A stretch of 64,000 nucleotides of DNA from Alphaproteobacteria bacterium (GTDB lineage: Bacteria; Pseudomonadota; Alphaproteobacteria; Micavibrionales; Micavibrionaceae), in the NCBI GenBank assembly GCA_003245575.1, contig QKCR01000041.1, positions 1 through 64,000 on the forward strand. The letters run 5' to 3'. Every line of letters begins with the position of its first letter. Within the stretch, counting starts at the first letter, position 1. Shown here one piece after another: positions 5,815 to 24,959 of the stretch. A program made the position numbers and the translations under genes. The notes under the pieces were generated by a model. It saw nothing but the letters and a program-made list of their open reading frames with translations. It was not told the origin of the DNA and searched no databases.

Positions 5815-6075
5815 ATATGCCCGAAAGAATATAGCGCAGTGCAAACTAAACTATTCTCTTGGAGAATGACCTACTCTTTATTATATATTAGGAAGCATAT
5901 TATTGTTCGGTAATCCGAAATCCTAACGCTCTGTTAACCACTTATAGGGCATCTTATAGTCTAGGGTATTGTAGAGAGAATTCTATTCTTTTCGACTACC
6001 GCATTTCACTGAGTATATCGACGAATACACTGGGAAAATGACTTTCCCCATATAGCCATAATGCAGGGGCCGCAC
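5815..6075. promoter_or_regulatory. AT-rich leader region in front of the cheAWYBR cluster
   Basis: No gene is seen in these 261 bases. The stretch is AT-rich around 5875-5935 and contains two short perfect hairpins: TTCGG-TAAT-CCGAA at 5906-5919 and GGGAAA-ATGAC-TTTCCC at 6032-6048, the latter just before the first possible cheA start. This is the natural place for the chemotaxis operon promoter, but no single -35/-10 pair stands out clearly. Confidence 0.45.
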
Positions 6076-8721: not shown

Positions 8722-9224
8722 GCGAAGGAACACAACATAACCAGTCCGAAAGAGGCAAATCTGCGCTCTCCTCCACAGAGGGCAAAACAAAAGAATTTCT
8801 AACCATCGAAATTCAGGGTCAGTTGTTCGGTATTCCTATCCTGCAAGTCCAAGACGTGTTGGGCGAGCTTAAAGTAACGCGTATTCCTTTGGCCCCGCCA
8901 CAAGTTTCCGGTTCCCTAAATCTGCGCGGTCGTATCGTGACCGCCATTGATGTCCGCAAATGCTTGGGATTACCTTCTTTGGAAAGCTCCGAAGACTCTC
9001 ATCGCATGAGTGTCGTCGTAAACCATGATGACGAACTCTACAGTTTGATTATTGACAGTGTCGGCGACGTACTGACACTGCATAATAAAGACTTCGAAGC
9101 CAATCCGGCAACTCTGGATTTGATTTGGAAGTCTGTGTCACTTGGCGTCTACCGTCTTCAGGGACGCATTCTGGTTGTTCTGGATGTCCCGAAACTTTTG
9201 TCTTCACTACAACACCCTAATTAA
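8718..9224 (+). CDS. cheW: Chemotaxis coupling protein CheW
   Basis: The 168-residue product links receptors to CheA. Its single CheW fold is recognisable from FLTIEIQGQLFGIPILQVQDVLGELKVTRIP, followed by GSLNLRGRIVTAIDVRKCLGL with the conserved NLRG turn, and VVNHDDELYSLIIDSVGDVL. About 28 polar residues precede the fold. The ATG overlaps the cheA stop codon in an ATGA junction, indicating translational coupling and matched expression of the two partners. Confidence 0.96.
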   Translation: MSEGTQHNQSERGKSALSSTEGKTKEFLTIEIQGQLFGIPILQVQDVLGELKVTRIPLAPPQVSGSLNLRGRIVTAIDVRKCLGLPSLESSEDSHRMSVVVNHDDELYSLIIDSVGDVLTLHNKDFEANPATLDLIWKSVSLGVYRLQGRILVVLDVPKLLSSLQHPN

Positions 9225-9309
9225 GGATATGAGTAAGATTTTATTTATCGTTCACGGATAAGATAGAATTTGTCTCGAACAAAAATAAGATCCGTCCAGG
9301 AGAGAACCT

Positions 9310-9684
9310 ATGAGAACCTGCCTAGTTGTTGATGATAGCCGCGTCGTCAGAAAAGTTGCCCGTCGTATTCTTGAAGACCTTCACTTCAATTGCGAAGAAG
9401 CCGAAGACGGTCAACAAGCCTATGAATATTGTGCAACAGCAATGCCGGAAGTCATTCTGCTGGACTGGAATATGCCGGTTATGAGTGGTATCGAATTTTT
9501 GGAAAAACTCCGCCAGATGCCTTCAGGAGATTCTCCACGCGTCGTATTCTGCACCACAGAAAATGATATGTCTCATATCCAGCGCGCAATGATGGCCGGA
9601 GCCAATGAATATATTATGAAGCCCTTTGATACGGATATTATTAAATCAAAATTCATTCAGATCGGCTTGATCGACGAAGAATAA
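9310..9684 (+). CDS. cheY: Chemotaxis response regulator CheY
   Basis: A single-domain receiver of 124 residues starting TCLVVDDSRVVRKVARRIL, with phosphoacceptor aspartate in VILLDWNMPVMSG, the threonine in VVFCTTEND and lysine in NEYIMKPFD. There is no output domain, as expected for a protein that carries the phosphoryl signal from CheA to the motility machinery. AGGAGAG lies a few bases before the ATG. It is 85 bases downstream of cheW within the same directional cluster. No flagellar genes are in the window, so the target (flagellar switch or pili) is not shown. Confidence 0.93.
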   Translation: MRTCLVVDDSRVVRKVARRILEDLHFNCEEAEDGQQAYEYCATAMPEVILLDWNMPVMSGIEFLEKLRQMPSGDSPRVVFCTTENDMSHIQRAMMAGANEYIMKPFDTDIIKSKFIQIGLIDEE

Positions 9685-9757
9685 GAACCTTCTTTCGCGT
9701 AATAGACCTGCTCTAAAAAGATAATATCTACAACAAAACAATACGGGCTCAGCACAT

Positions 9758-10948
9758 ATGCCACACTCCTCGACAACGCCTCTGAAAGTTATGATCGTTG
9801 ATGATTCTGCGGTCATACGAGGATTTTTGGGAAAGATGTTGGAATCTGAGCCCGCTTTTGAAGTCCTAAGCACGGCCGCCAACGGCCAAAGCGCCGTTAC
9901 AAACCTCCAACGCCAACGTCACGATCTGATTCTTTTGGACGTTGAAATGCCTGTTATGGACGGATTGACCGCCATACCACTTCTGATGCAAGCCCAACCT
10001 GACATCAAGATCATCATGTGCTCGACCTTGACCACAGAGAACGCAGAAACAACCATGCGCGCTTTGGCACTCGGCGCGGTAGATTGCATTGCTAAGCCAA
10101 GCACAACTCAAGACATTTATGCAAAAGACACATTTCGCAATATCCTCACGCATACTCTGCGCGGGATCGGCGGCATCAGCCAGAACAAAGCCCCGACACC
10201 ACAGCCTCAGCAGGAAAAACCGCAAGCTCGGGATAATGCTGCCCCACGCAGAACACTTAGAGAATCATCCCCGACACCGACAAACGCGCCCCAAACCACA
10301 CAAGAGCATGTCTCGATAGACAGATCGAAAAAGACATTCACTTTACGTCCGTCCAATCAGGGCTACACAGGGAAACCGGAAATTCTGGTTATCGGCAGCT
10401 CGACAGGGGGGCCGAATGCCCTATTCGAACTGATCCCACACCTCAAAGGGGTACAAATCCCGATCATTATCACCCAGCATATGCCGCCGACTTTTACACG
10501 CATTCTGGCTGAACATATTGAACAACAAACAGGCGTTAAAGCCGTTGAAGGCGCAGAAGGCATGCCCCTTCTACCGGGACGCGTGCATATCGCACCGGGT
10601 GGCTATCATATGCAATTAAAGAAAAACGGCCCATCAACCGTGATTACGCTTAATGACGGTCCGATGGAAAATTTCTGCCGTCCGGCAGTAGACCCGATGT
10701 TCCGATCTGCTGTCAAAATCTACGGGGAGAAAATTATGGCTGTTATTCTGACAGGCATGGGGCAAGATGGAATGCTCGGCGCCCGTGATGTTGTTGCCGC
10801 AGGCGGTCGCGTCATCGCTCAGGATGAAGCCACAAGTATTGTTTGGGGAATGCCCGGAGCCGTCGCACTTGACGGAAGCTGCTCCGCGGTCCTCCCCTTA
10901 AAAGAAATCGGCCCTTGGCTACGTAAATCGTCCTTGCGTTTAGCTTAG
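9758..10948 (+). CDS. cheB: Protein-glutamate methylesterase CheB
   Basis: The 396-residue protein has an N-terminal receiver (VMIVDDSAVIRGFLGKML, acceptor aspartate in LILLDVEMPVMDG, lysine in CIAKPS), a Pro/Gln-rich linker near residues 145-200, and the C-terminal methylesterase. The esterase triad is visible as the serine in IGSSTGGPNAL, histidine in ITQHMPPTF and aspartate in GMGQDGMLGA; the tail WGMPGAV is also typical. It demethylates receptor glutamates during adaptation and opposes CheR, whose gene follows by 20 bases. The start has no strong ribosome-binding site, so coupling to upstream translation is possible. Confidence 0.95.
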   Translation: MPHSSTTPLKVMIVDDSAVIRGFLGKMLESEPAFEVLSTAANGQSAVTNLQRQRHDLILLDVEMPVMDGLTAIPLLMQAQPDIKIIMCSTLTTENAETTMRALALGAVDCIAKPSTTQDIYAKDTFRNILTHTLRGIGGISQNKAPTPQPQQEKPQARDNAAPRRTLRESSPTPTNAPQTTQEHVSIDRSKKTFTLRPSNQGYTGKPEILVIGSSTGGPNALFELIPHLKGVQIPIIITQHMPPTFTRILAEHIEQQTGVKAVEGAEGMPLLPGRVHIAPGGYHMQLKKNGPSTVITLNDGPMENFCRPAVDPMFRSAVKIYGEKIMAVILTGMGQDGMLGARDVVAAGGRVIAQDEATSIVWGMPGAVALDGSCSAVLPLKEIGPWLRKSSLRLA

Positions 10949-10968
10949 GGAAAAGGATAATAGCACCC

Positions 10969-11868
10969 ATGAAAATTTCTGATTTTGAACTTTATAAATC
11001 TCTTCTGTACGAAAAATCCGGTCTAGTCATAACACCGGACAAATCCTATTTGCTCGATTCCCGCCTGACGCCGATTGCCAAAAAATGGAACTTTGCGTCT
11101 TTGGAAGCTATGACCCTGCAATTGCGGGCCATTCCTGATAACAAGCTGATTAAAGACATCGTAGAAGCCATGACGACGAATGAAACGTCATTCTTCCGCG
11201 ATACAAAACCATTCCAGATTTTTCAGGAAACCATCCTTCCCGTCCTTCTGGAAAAAAGAAAAATCAAGAAAACCATTCGTATCTGGTGCGCAGCCTGTTC
11301 AAGCGGGCAAGAACCTTATTCGTTGGCTATGATTCTGAAAGAGAAGGAAGCCCTTCTCAAAGGCTGGCGCTTTGAAATCATGGCAACAGATATTTCCGAC
11401 GACATTCTGGATCAAGCCAAACGCGCAAGCTATACACAATTTGAAGTCCAGCGCGGACTACCCATTCAATATCTGATGAAATATTTCATGCAGATCGGCG
11501 AAACATGGCAGTTGAAAGACGAAATTCGGAATATGGTTCGTTATTCCAACTTCAACTTACTGGACCCGATGTCCCGTTTGGGTTCCTTCGACATCATCTT
11601 TTGTCGGAACGTTCTGATCTACTTTGATGAGAAAACCAAAGGCGACATTTTGAACAGAATGTCCACTCAATTGGAAAATGACGGTTTCTTGCTTCTCGGC
11701 GGGGCCGAGACAGTATTGGGTATTACGGACAAGTTCCAACCCAATCCGGAAAAGCGTGGGCTATATGTCAAAACACAACCAAAAACCGATACGCCGTCGG
11801 CAACGGGATCAGGCTCTTCGACAAGTAGCACATCAAGTTTCACATCCGGACTTTTCAAACGCACATAA
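10969..11868 (+). CDS. cheR: Chemotaxis protein methyltransferase CheR
   Basis: CheR methylates receptor glutamates with S-adenosylmethionine. The 299 residues include the helical N-terminal domain (FELYKSLLYEKSGL, ETSFFRDTKPF) and the methyltransferase domain with the SAM motif IWCAACSSGQEPYSLAM, the acidic strand IMATDISDD and FDIIFCRNVLIYFD. After about residue 272 there is a Ser/Thr/Gly-rich tail of roughly 25 residues that is not part of the enzyme fold. It is the last gene of cheAWYBR; purH starts 45 bases after its stop with no transcription terminator between them. Confidence 0.95.
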   Translation: MKISDFELYKSLLYEKSGLVITPDKSYLLDSRLTPIAKKWNFASLEAMTLQLRAIPDNKLIKDIVEAMTTNETSFFRDTKPFQIFQETILPVLLEKRKIKKTIRIWCAACSSGQEPYSLAMILKEKEALLKGWRFEIMATDISDDILDQAKRASYTQFEVQRGLPIQYLMKYFMQIGETWQLKDEIRNMVRYSNFNLLDPMSRLGSFDIIFCRNVLIYFDEKTKGDILNRMSTQLENDGFLLLGGAETVLGITDKFQPNPEKRGLYVKTQPKTDTPSATGSGSSTSSTSSFTSGLFKRT

Positions 11869-11871
11869 TAT

Positions 11872-11924
11872 GCTACAAACGGGCTGCATTACTTAATCAA
11901 GGAGTAGCCCGTTATGTCTGTAGC
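11872..11924 (+). promoter_or_regulatory. Extended hairpin enclosing the purH ribosome-binding site and start codon
   Basis: AACGGGCT (11878-11885) pairs perfectly with AGCCCGTT (11906-11913), and directly outside it GCTACA (11872-11877) pairs with TGTAGC (11919-11924). The inner 20-base loop carries the AAGGAG ribosome-binding site, and the 5-base bulge ATGTC holds the purH start codon. There is no T-run, so this is not an intrinsic terminator for cheR. The arrangement suggests control of translation initiation of purH. Confidence 0.6.
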
Positions 11925-13500
11925 CGCAAAACCCCGTTCGACCCCTCGCCCTGACCGTGTCAAAGTGACAACAGCCCTGCTGTCTGTCTCGGATAAAAGC
12001 GGCTTGATAGAACTGGCAAAAGCCCTAAGCACGGCAGGCGTTAAACTCCTCTCGACAGGCGGCACATCCAAAGCCATCCGCGAAGCAGGCTTAGATGTTA
12101 CAGATGTGTCAGAACACACTGGCTTTCCTGAAATCATGGACGGTCGCGTTAAAACGCTCCATCCGAAAGTCCATGGAGGACTTCTTGCGCGCCGTGATGA
12201 TACAGACCATATAAAAGCCATGACAGAACAAGGGATCGGAGCAATCGACCTGTTGGTCGTCAATCTTTACCCGTTCAGAGAGACAGTCGCAAACGGTGCG
12301 GACTATGATAATTGTGTCGAGAATATCGACATCGGCGGACCGGCAATGCTCCGTGCTGCTGCCAAAAACCACGACTTTGTGACAGTCGTCACAGACCCGT
12401 CAGACTACACAACCATTGCTGAAGAAATCGCATCCGGCGGAACAACTTTCAAAACGCGCCAACGCTTGGCGGCAAAAACCTACGCCGCAACCGCCAGCTA
12501 CGATGCCGCAATTTCCGCATGGTTTGCCAAAGAGTTAGACGAAAGCTTTCCACAAACACTCTCCGTCTCGGCAACAAAAATCGACACGTTGCGTTACGGA
12601 GAAAACCCTCATCAACTCGCAGCCGTTTACGCTGACGGCTCAGGTCGAGCAGGCGTTGTCACTGCAAAACAGTTACAAGGGAAAGAACTTTCATACAACA
12701 ACTTGAATGACACCGATGCAGCCTTCGAACTGGTCTCGGAATTTGACAGCCCCGCTGTCGCAATTATCAAACACGCGAACCCATGCGGCGTGGCAACAGG
12801 TGCAGACATGATCTCTGCCTATAAAGACGCCCTTGCCTGTGACCCAGTCAGCGCGTTTGGCGGCATCATCGCTCTGAACCGCAAACTGGACGGTGCGACA
12901 GCAGAAGAAATTATAAAGATTTTCTCGGAAGTTATCATAGCCCCTGAAATTTCAGACGAGGCAAAGGCGATCCTTGCCGCCAAGAAAAATGTCCGCGTAC
13001 TAGAAACAGGAGGCATGGCCGATCCGAAACAAGCCCGCATGACGCTGAAAACAATTTCAGGCGGCTGGCTGTTACAAACAGCTGACAACGGTCACATCAC
13101 CGAAGCAGACCTGAGAGTCGTGACCAAGCGCGCCCCCACGGAACAGGAACTCAAAGACCTGCTTTTTGCCTTCCGCGTATGTAAACATGTCAAATCAAAC
13201 GCAATTATCTATGCCAAAGGCGGAAAAACAGTCGGCATCGGTGCAGGCCAGATGTCCCGTATTGATTCCAGCCGCATCGCGGCATGGAAGGCCAAGGAAG
13301 CGGGTACAGAGATCGAAGGCTCTGTCGTAGCCTCAGACGCGTTCTTCCCCTTCCCTGACGGCCTATTGGCAGCCGCCGACGCCGGCGCGACAGCCGTCAT
13401 CCAACCGGGCGGATCAATCAAGGATGACGACGTCATCAAAGCCGCAGATGAACGTGGATTGGCAATGGTATTAACAGGAATGCGCCACTTCAGGCATTAA
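11914..13500 (+). CDS. purH: Bifunctional AICAR transformylase / IMP cyclohydrolase
   Basis: PurH carries out the last two steps of IMP synthesis: formylation of AICAR and ring closure. The 528 residues cover both domains. The N-terminal cyclohydrolase (MGS-like) half contains [27 protein letters not shown] and [20 protein letters not shown]. The transformylase half contains [35 protein letters not shown], and [11 protein letters not shown], ending in [12 protein letters not shown]. The ATG follows AAGGAG by 12 bases and sits inside a potential hairpin. PurF, the first enzyme of the pathway, is also encoded in this window about 34 kb away on the other strand. Confidence 0.97.
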
Positions 13501-13603
13501 TTCTGTCCTAACTCCATTAAGACTTTCTTTACCCTTTTTTTATGGCATTACCTATCTAGGATCAGGTAGAATAGGAAAAAATTAAGAAGAAAGAGGGTGT
13601 AAA

Positions 13604-14818
13604 ATGGCGAGTTTCTGGAGTGATATTAAATCATCTTCCTCATACCAAACTTTGGTAAGAGCAATAGACGCCGCCCCACTGCCCTCAAATATCATCAATA
13701 GACTTATAGATTCAAACCATACTGCAAAAGTTATTAGAGATGGCCTAGTCGAAGGCACGGCTGAAACAATTGGTTACGGCTTAGGACTTCCGCAAACTTT
13801 ATATAAATTTTGGAAAGAACATGTTGACGGAGAGCGCTTTGAAGAGCCGCCGGAAAAGCAAGAATATTCTCCTGAATGGTTTAAAAGTCAGCTAATGGGA
13901 GAATATGAGGACAATCTCAGAATTTTAAGAAAAACTAGACCAGAACTTAGGCCCGGAACCTATGATGGATATATTCACGCTGGAGCCAGCTTTGTACCAC
14001 TCATAGGATCTGCTTTTATTCCTGGCGGCCAGGCCGCTGGCGCTTCGAAAGTAGGGCAAGTTATATCTTTCGTCGCCCCGAAACTTGGGGCAGTAGGCTT
14101 TGCTACAACTACAGCCACGGAAGGATATGAAGTTGCGGAGGAATACTTGGATTTTGGAGCAGCAACACAAGAACTGGTAGGATTTGGACTTCCCAATAAA
14201 CCTTCACCGCCACCTCAGGATAGTTTAACATCTAATCAAGCAAATAATATGGCACCAACGGCCACAGAACCGATCAAACCAGATGCCGCATCTTCAGCAC
14301 CTCTAGTTTCCCCCCCTAAGTCGCACGCGATCATTCTAGGTCTCACAATCGGGACCACACTTCAAGAAGATGGAGGAACGACGAAATTTGACACTGAAAA
14401 AACAACCCTGCTGCAAACGGAACTCGCAAATATGGGACGATACTCCCATAAGATAGACGGAATTGCAGGTAAACATACAATGAACGGGCTCGATTCTGCG
14501 ATAAAAGAGATAATTAAGCCAACCAGCCTAAGTGATGACATCAAATCTCTTTACAAGGACAAAATGGCAGAATTATCAAAAGACTTACGGAACAACCCTC
14601 CAAATGAATTTGCCTACGATCCGAGAGTAACTGCTTTTCAAGTATGCGGATACGCACTAGGTATTTATAATAAAAAGATTGATGGCCTGATGGGTCCATC
14701 AAGCATGAAAGCAGCCCAACTTATTGAAAATAAAGATTTTAGCGTAAACAACACGCAAGTTGCGGCAAGTCCGGCACCGCAACCACCAAAAGTAGAGCTT
14801 GCAACGATTGCACCATAA
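13604..14818 (+). CDS. Unknown protein with two C-terminal peptidoglycan-binding-like repeats
   Basis: No family is recognised for the whole 404-residue protein. The ATG is preceded by AGAGGG. The N-terminal 120 residues are polar and aromatic-rich. Residues about 125-190 form a Gly/Ala/Val-rich weakly hydrophobic stretch (SFVPLIGSAFIPGG, VISFVAPKLGAVGFAT) that could associate with membrane. A Pro/Thr/Ala-rich linker follows (about 205-240). The C-terminal part has two copies of a motif resembling the PG_binding_1 fold: HKIDGIAGKHTMNGL near 283-300 and KKIDGLMGPSSMKAA near 357-372, each preceded by a helix like LLQTELANMG or FQVCGYALG. No clear signal peptide is seen. First gene of a six-gene codirectional run; 105 bases separate it from the next. 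Confidence 0.8.
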   Translation: MASFWSDIKSSSSYQTLVRAIDAAPLPSNIINRLIDSNHTAKVIRDGLVEGTAETIGYGLGLPQTLYKFWKEHVDGERFEEPPEKQEYSPEWFKSQLMGEYEDNLRILRKTRPELRPGTYDGYIHAGASFVPLIGSAFIPGGQAAGASKVGQVISFVAPKLGAVGFATTTATEGYEVAEEYLDFGAATQELVGFGLPNKPSPPPQDSLTSNQANNMAPTATEPIKPDAASSAPLVSPPKSHAIILGLTIGTTLQEDGGTTKFDTEKTTLLQTELANMGRYSHKIDGIAGKHTMNGLDSAIKEIIKPTSLSDDIKSLYKDKMAELSKDLRNNPPNEFAYDPRVTAFQVCGYALGIYNKKIDGLMGPSSMKAAQLIENKDFSVNNTQVAASPAPQPPKVELATIAP

Positions 14819-14820
14819 GA

Positions 14821-14838
14821 GACATTTAAACAAATGTC
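14821..14838. other. Short perfect stem-loop
   Basis: GACATTT-AAAC-AAATGTC lies 2 bases after the stop codon of the preceding gene. It lacks a T-run, so it is at most a weak transcript-stabilising hairpin or a protein-binding inverted repeat; it is AT-rich and only 7 bp long. Confidence 0.35.
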
Positions 14839-14861
14839 GGACGATAGAGAACTATAAAAGT

Positions 14862-14891
14862 TTGCATTTTTCTATAGAGCTATGATAGAAT
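14862..14891 (+). promoter_or_regulatory. Candidate promoter for the 14.9 kb gene
   Basis: TTGCAT (14862-14867) and TAGAAT (14886-14891) are separated by 18 bases and lie about 30 bases before the start codon. The -10 element matches the sigma-70 consensus in five of six positions; the -35 is weak. The call is by eye only. Confidence 0.35.
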
Positions 14892-14923
14892 GCAATTAAC
14901 ATATAAAATAAGGAGTGTGTAAG

Positions 14924-16060
14924 ATGGGGTTAGTTAGCAAGCTAAAAGCTGCATATAAAGCATTTAAAGAGGGCGACGCCATCAGGAAAGGCGTGCGCGC
15001 AGCCGCATACACAGCCGAGGAGATAACGCCTGAGATAGCAAAAATTCACGATAAGCAACGCGTACTTGTGGAAGGCATTGAAGCTGCCTTGAACCCAAGG
15101 AACAAAACGCTCGGAGAATCTGCAAAGGAAGCCGCATCGAGTGTAGGAAACTTAAGAAAAGGCACAGGGCCTAATTTATCAGGAGCGGCGAATAGCGCAG
15201 CATCTAAGCAAGATACAATAGCAGAAGCAACAAAAGAACTCAGACAGCACATCTCCTCAGAGGACTATGGTAAATTAAAGTTAATGGAAGGAGATCTAAA
15301 GCCTCAAGAAGCGCTAGATGCTCTTTACTCTGGCTACAGAATTTCTCCGGAAAGTTTCAGAGCGTTAAACAAACAACTTTCCACAGGTACCCTCGTCCCA
15401 ACATCCGGTCTGAAGAAAGCAGCCATAGTTGGTGCAGTCGCTGTAGCTTCTGCGGGAATATATAATGGACTAGAATCTCAATCAGACCAAAACGACAATA
15501 ACCTCAGTTTTGGTGAACGTATTGTGTACAATGGCAAAAAGTTCTGGATGGGCATTACAGGATACGGACAAGATACTTGGGTTACAAACGCACTGAACAA
15601 AAACCCAGGCGACAGGATCGCCGTAGCATTAAAAGGGAACATAGATAAAAATATTGCTGACGCGCAAGAATCAGGACAAACAAAAGCTGATACCAACAGA
15701 GCACTTCAAGTTGCTCGAGCAAATGAGGGGTCTGTTAATGTTGCCCAACAAGTAGGAACCGCATTCCTGACCGGAGTGCCTCAGGTAGGTGTTGATAGTG
15801 CAGCCTCAAAATTCGGAGCACTTATTAAGTCTCAAGGTGCGGCTTTGACTGCTGAGAAAATAACCGAGTACGAAACTGCCTTTAGAGGTATTCTGCGAGA
15901 ACAAATTGACCAAAATAAAGATTCTATGTTACAGCCAGCAGAAGCAAAAGGCTTGGCGTCATCAGATAGCTTTATTAAGCTAATTGAGGGATTGCCGATA
16001 AATGAGCAACAAAAAGCTTATGTAGCAAGCCAAACCCTTGCTATGACAGGATATAAGTAA
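14924..16060 (+). CDS. Unknown single-pass membrane protein with EF-hand-like loop
   Basis: The start is the ATG at 14924, set by AAGGAG 8 bases upstream. The 378 residues fall into a basic, helical N-terminal half (MGLVSKLKAAYKAFKEGD...), one hydrophobic segment near 164-182 (AAIVGAVAVASAGIY), and a C-terminal half of about 195 residues beginning with an aromatic patch (ERIVYNGKKFWMGITGYG). Near the C-terminus residues 329-340 read DQNKDSMLQPAE, which fits the calcium-binding EF-hand loop at positions 1, 3, 5, 8 and 12; position 6 is Ser instead of Gly. Positive charge before the membrane segment suggests N-in, C-out. No family recognised. Gene 3 of the run starts 49 bases later. Confidence 0.78.
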   Translation: MGLVSKLKAAYKAFKEGDAIRKGVRAAAYTAEEITPEIAKIHDKQRVLVEGIEAALNPRNKTLGESAKEAASSVGNLRKGTGPNLSGAANSAASKQDTIAEATKELRQHISSEDYGKLKLMEGDLKPQEALDALYSGYRISPESFRALNKQLSTGTLVPTSGLKKAAIVGAVAVASAGIYNGLESQSDQNDNNLSFGERIVYNGKKFWMGITGYGQDTWVTNALNKNPGDRIAVALKGNIDKNIADAQESGQTKADTNRALQVARANEGSVNVAQQVGTAFLTGVPQVGVDSAASKFGALIKSQGAALTAEKITEYETAFRGILREQIDQNKDSMLQPAEAKGLASSDSFIKLIEGLPINEQQKAYVASQTLAMTGYK

Positions 16061-16108
16061 GCCACACAGAATATTTATATATAGAGATTACACATAAGAG
16101 AGGGCAAA

Positions 16109-16972
16109 ATGGCTACAGGTAATCAAACATCTACAGCAGGCGCTGCAGGAGTGCAGAACGAACAAGAACTTGCCTTACAGGGTCTGTTCAAATCGATTGC
16201 ACAAATCGATCCGAATTCGCCTGAAGCTGCGGTAGAAATGATGCGTCTGTTTGAGGGCTATTACAAACAGACCGGTAATATGCAACTCGCTGAGAACGTA
16301 AACCAAGTTCTCAAAAAAGCACAGGAAGGTAAATTAGATCTTCGTAAAGCGTTTGGCGACTCTACGCTTGAAATATGGAAGCTAGCGAGAACAACCGAGC
16401 AAAAACTTCAAGAAAAAGATCAAAGTCAATATCTGGATGCTTACTATGGCACGCAACAACAACGCTTGTCAGCTGAACTTGATGTTCAAACAATGGTAAT
16501 CAAAGGTGCAGCCGGAGGTTACAAGCTTCTGGCAATGATAGGGTCTATCCTATCAGCTATTCCTGGCTTGGAACAAATCGGCAAGGATTTGGTCCAATCC
16601 TCCATCCAAGCATCAAAAGAGCTGAAAGTTGACAAGATAGAAGAAGATGCCATCCGTCAATCTGACCGCGAGAACGCTAAAAAACCAAAAATCGGCGAAG
16701 TCACTGCTGAAGATGCCGGAAAGAAAGCAGATGCAATCATAGCTCAAATTATGAATGATGCTAAGATCGTTGGTGAATCAAGAGGCTCACAACGCGCTAG
16801 CGGAGGAACCAATCCGGATGCCCCACAGCAAACGCCTTTTAGTGCAAACGGGACTACAGCAACGACACCAGCAGCAGCCAGTGGCACACCTGCACCTACA
16901 CCTGCTGCAGATAAACCTGCGATTTGCAACACATCTTTCGGCAGCAAAATGCCCGAATGCCAGCCTAGCTGA
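16109..16972 (+). CDS. Unknown helical protein, third gene of the 13.6-23.1 kb cluster
   Basis: The 287-residue product is not recognised. It has GAGAGGG before the ATG. The first 130 residues are helical and polar (LFKSIAQIDPNSPEAAVEMMRLFEGYYKQ), then a moderately hydrophobic stretch around 132-160 (GAAGGYKLLAMIGSILSAIPGL), another charged helical part, and an Ala/Pro/Thr-rich tail that ends in a short segment with two cysteines (ICNTSFGSKMPECQPS). The tail's cysteine pair recalls the C-terminus of the next gene's product, which also ends with two close cysteines. No signal peptide. An intrinsic terminator follows at 17008, so this gene closes the first transcription block of the cluster. 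Confidence 0.75.
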   Translation: MATGNQTSTAGAAGVQNEQELALQGLFKSIAQIDPNSPEAAVEMMRLFEGYYKQTGNMQLAENVNQVLKKAQEGKLDLRKAFGDSTLEIWKLARTTEQKLQEKDQSQYLDAYYGTQQQRLSAELDVQTMVIKGAAGGYKLLAMIGSILSAIPGLEQIGKDLVQSSIQASKELKVDKIEEDAIRQSDRENAKKPKIGEVTAEDAGKKADAIIAQIMNDAKIVGESRGSQRASGGTNPDAPQQTPFSANGTTATTPAAASGTPAPTPAADKPAICNTSFGSKMPECQPS

Positions 16973-17007
16973 TCAAGGTAATCGCAAGAAACAGGTCCTT
17001 TAGCTTA

Positions 17008-17029
17008 AACCGCCTCAAGGCGGTTTTTT
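17008..17029 (+). terminator. Rho-independent terminator
   Basis: AACCGCC (17008-17014), loop TCAA, GGCGGTT (17019-17025) and a run of T to 17029. It separates the first three genes of the unknown cluster from the last three. Confidence 0.9.
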
Positions 17030-17190
17030 CTATATCGCAAAAGCTTGCAAAATATGACGAAAATATGGCATGATATGTGCGTTCGAGACATAATACTAGG
17101 CAACACGCACCAGAAAAAGCGGATAAAAAGAGATTGCCAGAAATTCCGAACAAACGGCATTAGAGTGAAAGATAAATAGAGGGTAGTGTC

Positions 17191-19485
17191 ATGTTATTTC
17201 ATGAAGTGAAAGATTCTGTAGACAGAAGCGAGAAACCTGTTCGCGTTTGGGACCATTTGATTGGAGCCAATACGGAGGAAGCCAGAAATCGTCGCCTGAA
17301 CGAATGGGATAGCGCAGCCCAACTTCAACAATACAGAGCGGCCTTTGTTCAGGAATTAAAAGCTCTTTCGGAAAGCGGTACACCTTTCACAGAGGAAGAC
17401 ATTCTCGAAAAACTGAACATGACACAAAACATGTTCTCTCTCGAAGAGGATCAGCTTCAACGTTATATCCAACAACGCCAGAGCGAAGTTAATCCGACTC
17501 TAGCAACAATAGAGAGCATTCGTAATATTCTGGCGACTAACGACTTTACAGATCAGGATAAAGCAGACTTCGATCAGGCTATTCGCGATAACGAAGAATC
17601 TATCCAAGCACCACTGAATGAAATCAAAATTGCCGAACGTCTGAAGAGAGCAACCCAAACTCTACTTAACCGCAGCTTAAGAGAAGCGGCCGAGCTGATT
17701 GTAACATTACCGGAAGACCGCCGATTAAAACCTGCCATTCTGGACGAAGAAACCAGAAGCAGCATCGAATCATTCGGCCTTGATCCAGACACCACAACCA
17801 TAGACACTGTTGAACTGACTGAGGCAGATAGATTCCCGCGTACCTCCCCGTCAAAGACCCCTTACGTTCCTCTGAGCGAGATTCGTCTGGCAGTCGAAGA
17901 CTTCTTGTCTTCGGAAGTAACCGCGCCTAAGGTAGCTGCAGCAGAAAAGACAGCCGCACAAGCTATTGAAAAAGCGATGGCCCCAACAGAAGCAAAACCA
18001 ACTGAGCCAACATCTGAAAAACCGGCACTGGCACCGGCAAGTCAACCTGCCCCGGTATTAAGCACGCTTAACAAGATCGAACGTGACCTTGAAATAGAAG
18101 CAGCCCATGACTTGGCCAAAAACTTCAAGACATATAAAGACAATCCGGATTTGGAAGCACTGATCCTTCTGCATTTCAAGCAACCCGTTACACGCACGGC
18201 ACGCATAATTAACGAACGCTTGGGACAAGGCCTGAAAGACGAGCAAACATTAGAATTGATCGAGCACAGACGGGCGCTCATGGCGTTTGCAAAACAATTC
18301 GACGAATTAAAAACCGCGCGTGATTTGGCAGAAAACTTTGAGAACCACAAAAACAACCCAGACCTGAACAAACTCGCGGAACAACATTTCAAGCAACCGA
18401 TCGCTCGCGCAACACAAGCCGTTAAACTCCGTCTGGAACAAGGCCTTAAAGACGAGCAAACATTAGAATTGATCGAACATAAACATGCTTTGATCGCTTA
18501 TGCTAAAAAGTTTGATAACCACCACACGGCGGAGAACAATCTCAGACAGGTTAAAGAAGCGTTTGGTTTGAAGGGGGATCAATATGTGTTGGCCGCGCAG
18601 GACGACTACGCCCCCCCGTTGGAGGATGAAAGTCTGGATGATTCAGAACACGATAGATTTGCTCCTGAGGAGTTAAAGGATCGCGCAAAAACATTGTGGG
18701 ACTTTGCTCATACTGATGAAGTATCAACTCTGAAAGCATATTTATTCAGCTCAATGGTAGATGATTTGAATGAAGCTCGAGACGTAGCAAATGTGCGTCG
18801 GGAAAAAGGCGAAGATGTCTCGCATATCGAAAAATTCATCTTGCATGCTCAAATCAGTGCAAAAATCGCAAAAGACAGAATAAAAGAATGGGATATAGCC
18901 AACCCTGAAACAGAACCTCAACCTCAACAGAGTAACGGACTTCTCGGGCGAATCGGCAAAAGCGTATCTTCCCTGACCTCCGCGTTCACACATGCCGTTA
19001 AGTCGGTCAGAGAATTTGTAACACCTAAACGCCTGGCTTTTGGCGTTTTGGGAGCGGGTGCAATCGCCGCAGCCATTTGGGGAACAACACCAAACACACC
19101 TGATGTAAAAACGGATTTTACGGCAGCGACAACTCCGACAGTAACCGCCCCAACAGCATCGACAGCACAAAAAATCACCCCTGTCGCAATAACTCTACCT
19201 GCCGCACAATCAACACCAGCAGTGTCAGATGCGCCGAAACAAGTGATGCATGGTGATTTTACCTTAGCTGAGGTCAAATCTATGTTTGGAGAGCCTCTGG
19301 AAACACCGGAAGCCGCAAAACCAGCCCACAAAAAAGCTCCATCCGCACGATCCCAATTCGCTCAAGCGTCTGTTGCCGCAGAGCCAACAGGAATCTCCAA
19401 TGTGGACAGAACAAAGGCATGTAACTTTGTATATCCGAATGGGGGCGAAGGGCTGCAAAGCTGCTTAAATATTGCACTGAATTAA
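17191..19485 (+). CDS. Unknown 764-residue protein with tandem 71-residue repeats and late membrane segment
   Basis: No family recognised. AGAGGG lies before the ATG. Residues 1-250 are helical and acidic. Residues 305-445 hold two tandem copies of a 71-residue unit: each copy has a DLA-NF start, HFKQP in the middle and the identical block LKDEQTLELIEH. The underlying DNA keeps a 29-base identical stretch at 18235-18263 and 18448-18476. After more helical sequence, a single hydrophobic segment near 616-634 (FGVLGAGAIAAAIWG), preceded by basic residues, suggests a large cytoplasmic N-terminal part and a roughly 125-residue Thr/Pro/Ala-rich C-terminal part outside the membrane, ending in CNFVYPNGGEGLQSC. 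A weak promoter pair TTGCAA/CATGAT lies near 17044-17080. Possibly a scaffold for the hydrolase proteins encoded next. Confidence 0.82.
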   Translation: MLFHEVKDSVDRSEKPVRVWDHLIGANTEEARNRRLNEWDSAAQLQQYRAAFVQELKALSESGTPFTEEDILEKLNMTQNMFSLEEDQLQRYIQQRQSEVNPTLATIESIRNILATNDFTDQDKADFDQAIRDNEESIQAPLNEIKIAERLKRATQTLLNRSLREAAELIVTLPEDRRLKPAILDEETRSSIESFGLDPDTTTIDTVELTEADRFPRTSPSKTPYVPLSEIRLAVEDFLSSEVTAPKVAAAEKTAAQAIEKAMAPTEAKPTEPTSEKPALAPASQPAPVLSTLNKIERDLEIEAAHDLAKNFKTYKDNPDLEALILLHFKQPVTRTARIINERLGQGLKDEQTLELIEHRRALMAFAKQFDELKTARDLAENFENHKNNPDLNKLAEQHFKQPIARATQAVKLRLEQGLKDEQTLELIEHKHALIAYAKKFDNHHTAENNLRQVKEAFGLKGDQYVLAAQDDYAPPLEDESLDDSEHDRFAPEELKDRAKTLWDFAHTDEVSTLKAYLFSSMVDDLNEARDVANVRREKGEDVSHIEKFILHAQISAKIAKDRIKEWDIANPETEPQPQQSNGLLGRIGKSVSSLTSAFTHAVKSVREFVTPKRLAFGVLGAGAIAAAIWGTTPNTPDVKTDFTAATTPTVTAPTASTAQKITPVAITLPAAQSTPAVSDAPKQVMHGDFTLAEVKSMFGEPLETPEAAKPAHKKAPSARSQFAQASVAAEPTGISNVDRTKACNFVYPNGGEGLQSCLNIALN
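18109..18534 (+). repeat. Tandem repeat of a 213-base coding unit
   Basis: Two consecutive 213-base units encode the 71-residue repeat in the 764-residue protein. The strongest identity is the 29-base block beginning at 18235 and again at 18448, exactly 213 bases apart; flanking codons have diverged. Confidence 0.85.
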
Positions 19486-19561
19486 TAATAGCTATAAAAG
19501 GCGTTATAAAAGTAAAAAGGGCCGATAGAGCCCGAACAAGGTATAATAGAGGACTGAGTTA

Positions 19562-21307
19562 ATGGAACGGACAACACCATCCGACCCCACATTTGCGCGC
19601 ACTTCCGATCGCGAAAAAGCAGTCATGTCCATAATATCGGACATAACAAATAATCCGTCATCTAATGCCCACAAAGAAATCATGCTTCTTCGCCTGCATG
19701 ACATGTTGAAAGCTGAAAGAAAATCCCTGTCAGCAGATCCAAATGCAGACCAAAGCTCAAAAAACGAAAATATAAGATTAAGCTTGATCGTCGCACGTCA
19801 TATCAAAACATTTCAAACCGAACGTCAGGAACGAGCGAAAAAGTCTTCACAGGCCAATCAAACCGAAAGAACAACTTCTAGTCAAGAACGAGACATAAAT
19901 ACGCCTAAAAACAACGCTCCAAATAAAAAACAGTTTTCTGAAAACATCGGAAAATTTATTTCCCGAATTGTAAACAGCATAACATCCACTTACCAAGCTG
20001 GGAAAAAGCAGGTTGAGGCAGCACATACGCATGTACAACCCTATCTGGAAAATAATGCCAAAGGCGCAAAAAAATTATATATAAAATTTCGAAATAGAGC
20101 GCAGGATAGTCTTGCAGATCACATAGACGCAGCACGTAAAGGAGTCAAAAATGCGACATTCTATGCTCGGTATAAATACAAAGAAATTAAATCAGATGCA
20201 GCTTCCCTAATTGAGCGTTTAAATCGCACACAAAAGATACTGGCTGCAACAGTTATTCCGGCAGCCGCGGCAATTGTAATTGCACCAGCTATATTGATGT
20301 CATCAAACGATGTACCCTCCAATCGGATGACATCACCGATCGATGAATTCAATACACTTTCTAAACCTCTTCCAATCACTGTTAAAAAAGCTGAACAGAA
20401 AATTGCCGCGCAAACACCAATCCCTGAGCCTGTTAAAGATATTATTCAGCAAACACCAAAGCCTGATACCATAAAGGTTGAGAGACAAACTGTAGCTTCG
20501 TCAGAGCTTGCGCCCAAACCAAGAAAATTTGGAAGAGGACGTGTACATATTAATTACACAGCCCTTTTAAGAAATCCGGAATACCGCGACCTGCTTGTCC
20601 AAGCGGCTCATAAAATGATTCATGAATATAGCGCAGAAGAGGTCTATCAAGGGATCATCATGACCGAATCCGGAGGAAAACAGTTTGACAGCACAGGAAA
20701 ACCATTAAGATCCAGAGCAAACGCCATTGGAAAGGCACAAATGCTCCCATCCACCGCCGAAACCATTGCAAATGACTGTACGGGAAAACCGGTTATTTGG
20801 AACAAGTTCTACTACAACGAACAGTATAACTATGACTTGGGCTATTGTTATTTCAAAGCCATGCGCGAAACCTATGGCAACAACATTCTGGCTGGTTTGG
20901 CCTATAACGGTGGGCCTGGTGGGCTGGAATGGAGAATGCGCAGGAACGGTTATAGCCCAACTAACGATCCGCATAAAACAGTTGAGTTCATGGGCAATAT
21001 CCGCAACATGGAGAACAGAGAATACATCGCCCAAACCATGGTTAAATTGGGTTTGATTGATCTTAGCAAACTTGGGCCAGATGTTCTGACGGAAAGAGTC
21101 ACAACATATAGTGACACTACTCAATACAAATATACTGTAAAAAAACCGGTTAGAGGGAACAGCATTACAGATAATGATCGCCCATCAAGGGCAGAGAGCC
21201 AGATATCGGGGCAGTTTAGAGCCTCACAAAGAGCATCATTAACAGAAACACCTAGTAGAGCCAGCAGAGCAAGCTCAAACACTGCACCTAGTGTACATAT
21301 CAACTAA
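19562..21307 (+). CDS. Membrane-anchored protein with C-terminal lytic transglycosylase domain
   Basis: The 581-residue protein starts after GAGGACTGAGTTA. Its N-terminal module (about 1-85, core LKAERKSLSADPNADQ and ENIRLSLIVARHIK) is shared with the next gene's product. A basic helical spacer leads to a membrane segment at about 224-245 (AATVIPAAAAIVIAPAILMS). After a Pro/Lys-rich linker comes an SLT-like domain: IIMTESGGKQFD with candidate catalytic Glu369, AIGKAQMLPSTAETIA, and LAGLAYNGGPGGLEWRM. The predicted topology puts the hydrolase in the periplasm. A Ser/Arg/Thr-rich tail follows. It would cut glycan strands; only the hydrolase domain resembles known proteins. Part of the six-gene run. 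Confidence 0.85.
   Translation: MERTTPSDPTFARTSDREKAVMSIISDITNNPSSNAHKEIMLLRLHDMLKAERKSLSADPNADQSSKNENIRLSLIVARHIKTFQTERQERAKKSSQANQTERTTSSQERDINTPKNNAPNKKQFSENIGKFISRIVNSITSTYQAGKKQVEAAHTHVQPYLENNAKGAKKLYIKFRNRAQDSLADHIDAARKGVKNATFYARYKYKEIKSDAASLIERLNRTQKILAATVIPAAAAIVIAPAILMSSNDVPSNRMTSPIDEFNTLSKPLPITVKKAEQKIAAQTPIPEPVKDIIQQTPKPDTIKVERQTVASSELAPKPRKFGRGRVHINYTALLRNPEYRDLLVQAAHKMIHEYSAEEVYQGIIMTESGGKQFDSTGKPLRSRANAIGKAQMLPSTAETIANDCTGKPVIWNKFYYNEQYNYDLGYCYFKAMRETYGNNILAGLAYNGGPGGLEWRMRRNGYSPTNDPHKTVEFMGNIRNMENREYIAQTMVKLGLIDLSKLGPDVLTERVTTYSDTTQYKYTVKKPVRGNSITDNDRPSRAESQISGQFRASQRASLTETPSRASRASSNTAPSVHIN
19704..19798 (+). repeat. Near-identical coding segment shared with 21549-21643 (copy 1)
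   Basis: This stretch and its partner encode the shared N-terminal module core of the two hydrolase proteins. Even most synonymous positions are the same (for example the run aaaatccctgtcagca and atataagattaagctt), which suggests recent duplication or gene conversion confined to this module. Confidence 0.8.
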
Positions 21308-21406
21308 CTTAAAGAGAATAGTAGTCAAAAACACACAGCTAAAATAGAGATAATTAGAAAGAGTTTCAAAGAGCTCTCCAAACGGTAATAATAACAAGGG
21401 TAAAAA

Positions 21407-23056
21407 ATGGAACGGAAGGAAATATCCGAAACCAATAAAGTACACGCCAGCAACCGCGAACTTGCAACTATTAACTACATAAAAAATATAGTCTTGTCGC
21501 AAGTTTCTGCGAGCGTAAAAGAGGCAAAGCTCATTCATTTGCATGAAATATTGAAAGCAGAAAGAAAATCCCTGTCAGCAAATCCAAATGCAGATCAAAG
21601 ATCAAAAGACGAGAATATAAGATTAAGCTTAATCGTCGCTCGCAATATAAAAGCGTTACAAATCCTGCGCCAAGAAAAATCTGCAAGATTTAAAAATTCC
21701 AATCCCGCCCCGGAACAAGAAGCAAAAGAAACTGCGCAAAAATTTACCCAAGACTCCGAAGATAGTCCCAAACAAGAAAAGACAAAAGCTCGCGGCTCAC
21801 GAAAGCAATATATAACGACAATGTTATCTTCAACTTCAAAGAAAATAGATAACCTAACAGACGTCGTACGCCTCAGTCTTGAAGACAAAAAAAGAAACAT
21901 GACAGCACGATATAACCGCGCTGTTTCAGATACTATATTGTTTATAAACAACTACACGCGCATCTGCACCGCACTAATAAAGCGAGTTGTCCCGGCCGCT
22001 ACTGCAATCATCATTGCACCCGCAATTCTTGTTTCCGGGCAAAACAATTCAAACGTGGAACCTCGTTTTTCTACAAATTTTAATGCGGCCTCCAGAGGAA
22101 ACATTTCGGATCAAAAACCCGAACCTACAAATAATCACGCCAATACCATCTCGAATAATGTAGAACCAAGATCAGCATCTCCCAAGCCACTGGCTTTTAT
22201 CCCTCAGCCCAAAGCCCAAGTTCTGGATCGCTCACAATACCCTGTAAAGGTACACATACCGTCTTTACAGCCCCCGAGGGATGTTGAGGGAATCGTTAAC
22301 ACAGCGATTGCCGAATGGGTGAAATCAGCAGACCATAAAACTTACGGCTTTTATGCTGATGGGATTCGCCAGAGGAACAGAGTAAGTTGCTCTAGTTTTA
22401 TCAGAAACGTCATCGGGAACGTCAATAGACATGCTAGCGAAGTCGGGATGAGCCTCCCGACACGCCATCTGCCCTATAACTCTGCGGCTTTAGTTGCCTA
22501 TGTGTCAGAAGCAAATAAACAAGCCCCCAGAAAACTTTCCTCCGGAAAAGAGCTTCTAAAACTCAGACCAGGGGATATAGTTGGCGTAGATTCTGGCGTA
22601 AATAAACACAAATATGACAAGGGAATTGATCATATTTTGATTATTTACAGGGACACGCAATCCCAAAAACTTATGATTGCCGAGAGCACTTCTCGCCGCG
22701 ATAAAAAAGATGGAAAAACAGGAGTTCAATCCTTATCCGTTGAAGATTATATGGTCCTGCTTGAGAAGCGCCGTCATTGGAAATTTTATGTAACTCACAT
22801 GACAGCCCTGCTCCAAGAAACGCCGGATGCCATAATAGTGCCAGACAAGAAACAAACACGCACATCGCGTTCCAAAACGGCACCATCCCAAGCTGCAGTT
22901 ACGGAAGAGCCGCTCATACAAAAGTTCAGAACAGCCAACACTCCTGATTCTGCAGTCCTATCCTTGGCACAAGGAACTAATGAAAGACGCGTGGCAGCGA
23001 TTCTTGAAGGTAGAGGCGAGCAATTCGAGCAGGCCGTACCGCCTCCCCGAATGTAG
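21407..23056 (+). CDS. Membrane-anchored protein with C-terminal NlpC/P60-like domain
   Basis: This 549-residue paralogue of the preceding gene product has the same N-terminal module (LKAERKSLSANPNADQ, ENIRLSLIVARNIK) and a membrane segment at about 190-212 (VVPAATAIIIAPAILVSG), but a different C-terminal enzyme-like domain. That domain has RVSCSSFIRNVIGNV with candidate nucleophile Cys328, LRPGDIVGVDSG, and GIDHILIIYRD with candidate His409, followed by MIAEST; this is the order seen in NlpC/P60 cysteine peptidases that cleave peptidoglycan stem peptides. The assignment is by motif order only. A tail of about 90 residues follows the domain. AAGGG precedes the ATG. Last gene of the run; lepA follows after 88 bases. 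Confidence 0.8.
   Translation: MERKEISETNKVHASNRELATINYIKNIVLSQVSASVKEAKLIHLHEILKAERKSLSANPNADQRSKDENIRLSLIVARNIKALQILRQEKSARFKNSNPAPEQEAKETAQKFTQDSEDSPKQEKTKARGSRKQYITTMLSSTSKKIDNLTDVVRLSLEDKKRNMTARYNRAVSDTILFINNYTRICTALIKRVVPAATAIIIAPAILVSGQNNSNVEPRFSTNFNAASRGNISDQKPEPTNNHANTISNNVEPRSASPKPLAFIPQPKAQVLDRSQYPVKVHIPSLQPPRDVEGIVNTAIAEWVKSADHKTYGFYADGIRQRNRVSCSSFIRNVIGNVNRHASEVGMSLPTRHLPYNSAALVAYVSEANKQAPRKLSSGKELLKLRPGDIVGVDSGVNKHKYDKGIDHILIIYRDTQSQKLMIAESTSRRDKKDGKTGVQSLSVEDYMVLLEKRRHWKFYVTHMTALLQETPDAIIVPDKKQTRTSRSKTAPSQAAVTEEPLIQKFRTANTPDSAVLSLAQGTNERRVAAILEGRGEQFEQAVPPPRM
21549..21643 (+). repeat. Near-identical coding segment shared with 19704-19798 (copy 2)
   Basis: Second copy of the module core described for 19704-19798. 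Sequence outside this block in the two genes has diverged strongly at both DNA and protein level. Confidence 0.8.
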
Positions 23057-23127
23057 CCTGTCTATGGCAAAATTCAGTCTTTAATCCGATGGGGCATCAC
23101 ATAAAACCATTGAAAAAAGGACAAAAA

Positions 23128-23144: not shown

Positions 23145-24959
23145 ATGACAACAACGCCATTAGACAAAATCCGCAACTTTGCGATTATTGCCCACATCGA
23201 CCACGGGAAATCCACCTTGGCCGACCGCCTCATTCAATCTTGCGGCGGCCTTACCGACCGTGAAATGAAACAACAAGTGCTTGATAACATGGAGATCGAA
23301 CGCGAACGCGGCATCACCATCAAAGCACAAACGGTCCGCCTGAATTACAAAGGGGCAGATGGCGAAACATACCAATACAACCTCATGGACACACCAGGCC
23401 ACGTGGACTTTACCTATGAAGTCTCGCGCTCTCTGGCCTCCTGTGAAGGCTCCCTGCTCGTTGTGGATGCCACTCAGGGCGTAGAGGCACAAACGCTTGC
23501 CAACGTCTATCAGGCAATTGACAACAATCACGAGATCATCCCCGTCATTAACAAGATCGACCTGCCCGCAGCAGATGTCGAACGCGTGAAAGAACAGATT
23601 GAAGATGTCATCGGGATTGACGCATCTGACGCTGTCTGCGTTTCAGGAAAAAGCGGAATCAACATCGACCAACTTTTAGAGGCCATCTACAAACGCTTGC
23701 CCGCACCTAAAGGCCAAACCGACACCCCAACCAAGGCGCTACTGGTTGACAGCTGGTACGATTCCTATCTGGGCGTGGTTATTCTGGTGCGCGTTATTGA
23801 CGGGTATTTGAGAAAAGGCATGAAAGTCCGCTTTATGGGCAGTAAAGCCACGCGCGAAATTGACCGTGTCGGTATCTTTACACCAAAACATGTGCTGGTT
23901 GACGAACTGGGCCCGGGAGAAATGGGCTTTATTACCGCAGCCATCAAGGAAATCTCCGAAACCAAAGTCGGGGATACCATCACAGAAGAAAGCTTTGCTG
24001 ATAAAGTGAAACCTCTCGCGGGCTTTAAACCTTCAGTCCCGATGGTGTTCTGCTCCCTATTCCCGATCGACAGTTCCGAATTCGAAAAACTCCGTGACTG
24101 CTTGGGCAAACTCGCTCTGAATGACGCATCTCTCCACTATGAACAAGAAAGCTCCCAAGCTTTGGGTATGGGATTCCGCTGCGGTTTCTTGGGCCTCCTC
24201 CACATGGAGATCATTCAAGAACGCCTCGATCGCGAATTTGATCTGGACCTGATTCCGACAGCGCCGAGTGTGGTCTATAAACTCGACCTCACCGACGGGT
24301 CAAAAATGGAAATTTATAACCCTGTCGATATGCCGGAAGTCCAACGCATCAAGGAAATTTACGAGCCTTGGATCAAAGCAACCATCCTCACCCCTGACGA
24401 ATATCTGGGCGGATTGTTGAAACTCTGCGAAGAACGTCGCGGTGAACAGATCAACCTGTCTTATGTCGGCTCTCGTGCAATGCTTGAATACCGCTTGCCG
24501 TTAAACGAAATCGTTTTCGATTTCTATGACCGTCTAAAATCCATTTCCAAAGGCTATGCAAGTTTTGATTATCATCTCGATGATTTCGTTGCAGGTGATC
24601 TGGTCAAAATGGACGTCATGGTCAACCAAGAAAGCGTTGACGCCCTTGCGATGATCGTTCACCGTTCCCAAGCAGAACGCCGCGGTCGCCAGCTTTGCGA
24701 ACGTCTGAAAGACCTGATCCCGCGCCAATTGTTTAAAATCGCCATTCAGGCCGCCATCGGCGGGAAAATCATTGCCCGCGAAGACGTATCAGCCATGCGC
24801 AAAGACGTAACTGCGAAATGTTACGGCGGTGACGTGTCACGGAAACGCAAACTCCTCGACAAACAAAAAGAGGGTAAGAAAAAGATGCGTCAATACGGGA
24901 ACGTTGAAATCCCTCAATCCGCCTTTATCGCCGCTCTCAAAATGGGCGATGAGAAATAG
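23145..24959 (+). CDS. lepA: Elongation factor 4 (LepA), ribosome back-translocating GTPase
   Basis: The 604-residue product matches LepA along its full length. The G domain has [15 protein letters not shown] (P loop), [20 protein letters not shown] and NKIDLP. Domains II and III follow, and the LepA-specific C-terminal domain ends [23 protein letters not shown]. It acts on ribosomes under stress or during assembly. AAGGGG precedes the ATG. It has the GC content of ordinary chromosomal genes, unlike its downstream neighbour. Confidence 0.98.

Follow-up and report, generated by a model that had tools for sequence, protein, structure and literature searches.

Two neighbouring genes in a 64,000-nucleotide stretch of DNA from a Micavibrionaceae bacterium (Alphaproteobacteria; GenBank assembly GCA_003245575.1, contig QKCR01000041.1; hereafter the window) encode proteins that share an N-terminal module and a single membrane segment, and that end in different domains: an SLT domain of the lytic transglycosylase type in the first and a domain with an NlpC/P60-like fold in the second. 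A short patch at the tip of the module bears the mark of recent copying between the two genes, and both genes lie in an island between purH and lepA that is replaced between close relatives. With evenly balanced confidence, we favour the explanation that the pair are inner-membrane-anchored enzymes that would open the wall of the producing cell itself to make way for an envelope structure encoded by the island.

A shared module and anchor ahead of two predicted wall cutters

Residues 1–99 of the two proteins are identical at 51 of 99 positions (52%; filtered for low complexity, the match has 92 bits and E 5.9e-23), and the local alignment score of this part, 229, far exceeds the maximum of 65 reached in 500 shuffles. 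An earlier note on this DNA had proposed a shared N-terminal module together with a similar membrane segment that includes the motif IAPAIL, and both are borne out, the likeness not being limited to low-complexity sequence. Each protein has a single hydrophobic segment, which follows the module (Table 1), and the linker plus membrane segment of the pair score 100 against a shuffle maximum of 59. The C-terminal parts show no likeness above chance (score 40, shuffle maximum 68), and the two C-terminal halves appear unrelated.

The N-terminal likeness is uneven and peaks in codons 46–82, where 31 of 37 residues are identical. The same codon is used at 24 of the 31 identical residues, a count that leaves out Met and Trp, against 12.6 expected, and none of 20000 draws reaches 24. 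At the DNA level, this 37-codon patch is ~87% identical between the genes and its flanks are background: 60-nucleotide windows at gene positions 121–180, 151–210 and 181–240 have 50, 54 and 52 of 60 positions identical, while those at 61–120 and 301–360 have 20 of 60 each. Shared codons are still in excess in residues 1–45 (10/14, p 0.004) and are without excess in residues 83–99 (3/5). Since its near-identical codons are flanked by background DNA, the patch points to recent copying from one gene into the other, through gene conversion or local duplication. The module is confidently predicted as three helices in both proteins, whose models fold alike, and in both the patch covers the end of helix 35–58, the turn and the start of the helix beginning at residue 64, which puts it at the tip of the hairpin that these helices are predicted to form.

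A profile of the module (E <=0.01) found two copies in the window's genome (G000) and one in the related genome G007. The earlier note had suggested looking for further proteins with the module in the same genome; no third copy was found there, although this genome is 89.7% complete and its missing tenth may hold one. No N-terminal hydrophobic signal or signal peptide was seen in the sequence or hydrophobicity of either protein. Because more Lys and Arg residues precede the membrane segment than follow it (8 versus 4 in the SLT protein and 6 versus 3 in the NlpC-like protein, counting 30 residues on each side), the likely topology is N-in/C-out, with the cutters in the producer's periplasm. 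The same excess occurs in the relatives from G007, G002 and G006, and an anchor common to both enzymes is supported.

The C-terminal domain of the first protein matches the Pfam family PF01464 (E 2.8e-7; 30.5 bits against a curated cut-off of 21.3) and contains the motifs TESGG (its Glu being residue 369), AIGKAQ and AYNGGP; the elements ES, AxGxAQ and AYNGGP are kept across the orthologues in G000, G006 and G001. A catalytic Glu in ES, together with GxxQ-like and AYN motifs, is the signature of lytic transglycosylases. The profile match above cut-off and the motifs support placing this domain in the SLT lytic transglycosylase class, with a predicted activity to match, as had been proposed from the sequence. 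With phmmer, the protein also matches solved Slt structures (E 0.006). Fold prediction was less informative here, as the SLT part of the model, covered by one sequence, mostly has a predicted local distance difference test (pLDDT) score <50; all 50 fold matches listed are to N-terminal or linker helices, and no lysozyme-type fold is among the matches of this poorly modelled part. PHROG matches of the SLT domain, which hold at domain level only, are endolysins and a tape-measure protein.

Searches of Pfam, NCBIfam and PHROGs with the second protein found no family at E <=1, and a profile search of solved structures with an alignment of three homologous sequences of its domain found none at E <=10. 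The model of residues 293–468 has block pLDDT values mostly of 74–88, weaker at 310–324, 400–403 and around 430–440. The case for an NlpC/P60 fold is carried by VIA-align; Foldseek by itself found nothing at E <=0.001. The top VIA-align match is the Lys2972 endolysin (Z 11.1), followed among others by the NLP/P60 protein SAV0400 (Z 9.7; 124 residues aligned, 3.3 Å), BCE_2878 (Z 9.6), a T. thermophilus NlpC/P60 protein (Z 9.2; 115 aligned, 2.9 Å), RipB (Z 9.0) and RipA (Z 8.9). Seven of the ten best matches are NlpC/P60 or peptidoglycan-hydrolase RipA/RipB/Cg1735 proteins (Z 8.6–9.7); the stated noise for models of this kind is Z 7–8, so that the matches near 9 lie above it, and they belong to the same family. 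In the predicted structure Cys328 opens helix 328–344 and His409 opens strand 409–415. Cys328, Ser329 and His409 are invariant across the three aligned homologues, whose overall identity falls as low as 23%, and the candidate third catalytic residue, at position 426, is Glu, Glu and Gln. Fold and residues together support a reading of the second protein as NlpC/P60-like, a label that does not extend to membership of any Pfam family. The candidate residues singled out by the earlier note (Glu369, Cys328 and His409) lie where it had put them, and its expectation for the C-terminal folds holds for the NlpC-like domain, the SLT part being too poorly modelled to follow suit.

Table 1 Positions of the island, its proteins and their parts in the window
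Feature	Position	Strand	Basis or remark
Hypervariable island	13589..23097	+	between purH (11914–13500) and lepA (23145–24959)
Island protein A, 404 residues	13604..14818	+	weak likeness to PG_binding_1, below cut-off
Island protein B, 381 residues	14915..16060	+	mosaic of two relatives, with a single hydrophobic segment
Island protein C, 287 residues	16109..16972	+	comparison with relatives
Island protein D, 764 residues	17191..19485	+	upstream of the pair; long helical part in the cytosol with a pair of old hairpin repeats, then a single membrane segment late in the protein (predicted)
Protein D hairpin repeat 1	18151..18324	+	repeat comparison
Protein D hairpin repeat 2	18364..18537	+	repeat comparison
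SLT-type protein, 581 residues	19562..21307	+	N-terminal module, then a helical linker, a single membrane segment, the SLT domain and a disordered tail
N-terminal module, SLT protein, residues 1–99	19562..19858	+	predicted helices 16–29, 35–58, 64–108
Near-identical patch, SLT protein, codons 46–82	19697..19807	+	residue and codon identity
Membrane segment, SLT protein, residues 226–244	20237..20293	+	hydrophobicity
SLT domain, residues 358–459	20633..20938	+	Pfam; Glu369 codon 20666–20668
NlpC/P60-like protein, 549 residues	21407..23056	+	same layout as SLT protein; directly upstream of lepA
N-terminal module, NlpC-like protein, residues 1–99	21407..21703	+	predicted helices 16–30, 35–58, 64–98; block pLDDT mostly 77–85
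Near-identical patch, NlpC-like protein, codons 46–82	21542..21652	+	residue and codon identity
Membrane segment, NlpC-like protein, residues 191–209	21977..22033	+	hydrophobicity
NlpC/P60-like domain, residues 293–468	22283..22810	+	predicted fold; Cys328 codon 22388–22390, His409 codon 22631–22633

The purH–lepA island and its replacement

Among 11 genus genomes including the window's (some of the compared stretches end at contig ends, where absences are less certain), the SLT enzyme stands before lepA in three (G000, G006 and G001) and the NlpC-like enzyme in four (G000, G007, G002 and G005). The SLT domain is constant in place and its N-terminus varies, being the module in G000, a hairpin of island protein D in G006 and a Tat-like signal in G001. 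The G006 hairpin is that of protein D in G000, G002, G005 and G007 (first-iteration E 2.6e-4; BLAST E 5e-5 to 7e-5), and G006 has no other copy of it at E up to 0.01. Because the SLT enzyme of G006 carries protein D's hairpin, there are two genomes in which the N-terminal module of this enzyme is also known from another anchored island protein. Three named records that match the NlpC-like alignment are from Alphaproteobacteria, one of them Micavibrio sp. UBA6212.

Across the che genes and purH, as far as position 13588, the DNA of the window is ~76% identical to that of G007, and from 23098 it is 90% identical again; in the island between, likeness is undetectable except for two ~70% patches in the NlpC-like domain. 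The proteins follow the same course, with LepA 99%, CheA 91% and PurH 88% identical and the alignable island proteins 24–38%. Compared with G002 and G005, protein A of the window is 52% identical, the C-terminal third of protein B 66–68% and protein C 71–72%; protein B is a mosaic, its N-terminal part being ~52% like G004 and its C-terminal part like G002 and G005. To judge from these comparisons, the whole purH–lepA stretch is swapped out between close relatives whose flanking genes keep 76–90% DNA identity.

Beyond the genus, purH precedes lepA in 12 of 20 stretches of a first set and 5 of 14 of a second, and in 7 of the 17 purH-bearing stretches of other genera the interval contains a single open reading frame of 1173–2096 codons. 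Iterated profile searches among the proteins encoded by the compared stretches found members of families A–D in the genus (g1) alone, and the weak tail resembled the shuffled and reversed controls. Because these families are undetectable outside the genus, what has been shown for the other genera and the window is a shared position rather than shared descent. In the other genera (stretches L053–L055, L057–L060, L073, L076 and L077), two small genes of ~105–160 codons, inter-related across genera, often follow the giant reading frame. Phage ejection proteins were considered as an account of the giant reading frames, but one of these and other island proteins gave no convincing match to PHROGs; two scans of viral contigs, one using the catalytic part of the SLT protein and the other the NlpC-like alignment, likewise found no relative that would speak for a viral origin. 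A chemotaxis operon (6061–11868; cheA, a cheW-like gene, cheB and cheR) lies ahead of purH and the island in most purH-bearing stretches.

The two hairpin repeats of protein D have an identical QGLKDEQTLELIEH stretch whose codons are unlike (6/18 the same), and for that reason the repeat appears old and under constraint, unlike the recent patch of the pair. Protein D and its G007 relative (L041:9651–11507) each end, past the membrane segment, in a short tail whose two cysteines (ACNF...QSCL and ACKY...DQCL) possibly form a periplasmic disulphide. A single hairpin repeat running through the whole island had been suspected by eye; hhalign gave no support for it. Upstream of the protein B gene, an element at 14852–14877 (CTATAAAAGTTTGCA followed by CNATAG) occurs once each in 4 of the 11 genus genomes, in all four just upstream of the equivalent of this gene. 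A consensus scan for promoters remained at chance level (18 found, shuffle mean 16.2).

Possible roles of the pair

We infer that the two are type II inner-membrane proteins, whose three-helix module and long helical stalk would lie in the cytosol, with one helix spanning the membrane and, on the periplasmic side of the producing cell itself, a flexible linker holding the peptidoglycan-cutting domain: a lytic transglycosylase in the first protein and an NlpC/P60-like endopeptidase in the second. The common cytosolic module would gather both enzymes at one site, most likely an envelope-spanning structure built from other island proteins, and glycan strands and stem peptides would be opened where this structure must cross the wall. 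An anchored pair gathered in this way and acting on its own wall, rather than on that of prey, is favoured on four grounds: the predicted topology, the pairing of a glycan with a peptide cutter, the copying of the module tip and the parallel that G006 provides. Docking by the module is plausible, and is favoured because three helices are confidently predicted in both proteins, the copied patch lies at the hairpin tip, and G006 offers its parallel. Of the earlier proposal that a common docking and anchoring module delivers complementary cutters, the anchor and the two cutter classes have thus held up, and docking keeps this plausible standing.

Several observations weigh against this explanation. 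The module occurs in just 2 of 104 family genomes, and no partner protein for it was identified; nor was there a pathway marker to indicate what is assembled. The two enzymes occur together only in G000 among the 11 genus genomes. The SLT enzyme can do without the module, because its G001 orthologue, with the Tat-like signal, has none. With hhalign, the G000 module could be linked neither to the protein D hairpin nor to the short N-termini of the NlpC-like proteins of G002 and G005. Finally, copying of the patch by gene conversion can occur without any selection.

This last point leads to a serious rival to the docking part, namely that the likeness is a leftover of local duplication and gene conversion, the N-terminal part being a mere spacer and anchor of enzymes for general wall turnover. 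Adjacent genes in the same direction are the best setting for conversion, near-identical DNA is confined to one short patch with flanks at background, and the module is not conserved beyond two genomes; but the patch sits at the tip of a confidently predicted hairpin, the G006 enzyme, too, has a module that relatives carry on a different anchored protein of the island, and housekeeping enzymes would not be expected solely in a replaced island. We regard neutral duplication as possible, if somewhat doubtful.

We consider it unlikely that the whole proteins are exported as effectors to prey or its periplasm, with the module as the signal for an undefined secretion route, in the manner of type VI marker domains. 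Such a role would suit a Micavibrio-like lineage, which includes described predators (PMC3189940), as well as the missing N-terminal signal peptides and the polymorphism of the island, which is frequent for effector loci. The clear membrane helix with its preceding positive bias fits an anchor instead, and the type VI sheath family PF05943 was found in none of the 11 genus genomes (an E. coli control was positive; the window's genome is 89.7% complete). None of six island proteins matched PADLOC at E <=0.01. Nor was any immunity gene recognised, although no search was aimed at one. Quite improbable, finally, is an NlpC-like domain that keeps the fold for acyl transfer or binding instead of peptidase activity: the papain-like fold hosts several activities and the domain lacks any family-profile match, but its Cys328, Ser329 and His409 do not vary in the three homologues, and wall hydrolases and endolysins make up most of its best fold matches.

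If the module of the favoured anchored pair recruits enzymes, it would offer a simple evolutionary route for adding cutters to an envelope machine. A bolder idea, which we treat as a long shot, is that in Micavibrio-like bacteria the purH–lepA island encodes a predation apparatus, so far undescribed, that spans the envelope and varies between strains. Its wall-cutting blades would be interchangeable between relatives, and each would be brought in when a cytosolic address tag, specific to the strain, is copied from one anchored island protein to another. The island, with its two classes of wall cutter and the tag that they share, provides concrete genes for testing by what means Micavibrio and other epibiotic predators get through or break down cell walls.

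Comparison with known systems

Soluble lytic transglycosylases of the Slt/MltE type (PF01464), which are usually exported or lipoproteins, resemble the first protein in the profile of the catalytic domain and in three motifs; here, unlike in that type, the SLT domain is preceded by a membrane helix and, ahead of this, by a module placed in the cytosol by the likely topology. The NlpC/P60 endopeptidases RipA, RipB, SAV0400 and BCE_2878 resemble the second protein in predicted fold, with a Cys at a helix start and a His on a strand, and differ from it in that our protein has no profile match, varies between Glu and Gln at position 426, and carries an unusual anchor and module. VirB1, FlgJ and EtgA are dedicated space-making transglycosylases of envelope machines, which open the producer's own wall; unlike these, the pair joins two enzyme classes to one cytosolic module, and its machine is a candidate only. 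In the Micavibrio, Micavibrionales and Micavibrionaceae literature covered, by title and abstract opening and with most subscription papers outside coverage, we found no description of the purH–lepA locus.

A parallel in layout is offered by the WHIX type VI effectors, in which one delivery domain is combined with different peptidoglycan cutters, including NlpC_P60-like and lytic-transglycosylase-like ones (PMC12135965). WHIX depends on a type VI system, and in the 11 genus genomes here the sheath family of such systems was not found. Both kinds of enzyme are known, as are, from the WHIX effectors, common delivery domains on different wall cutters (PMC12135965). What is new is the anchor with a lineage-specific tag, the recent copying of this tag and the replaced island in which it lies.

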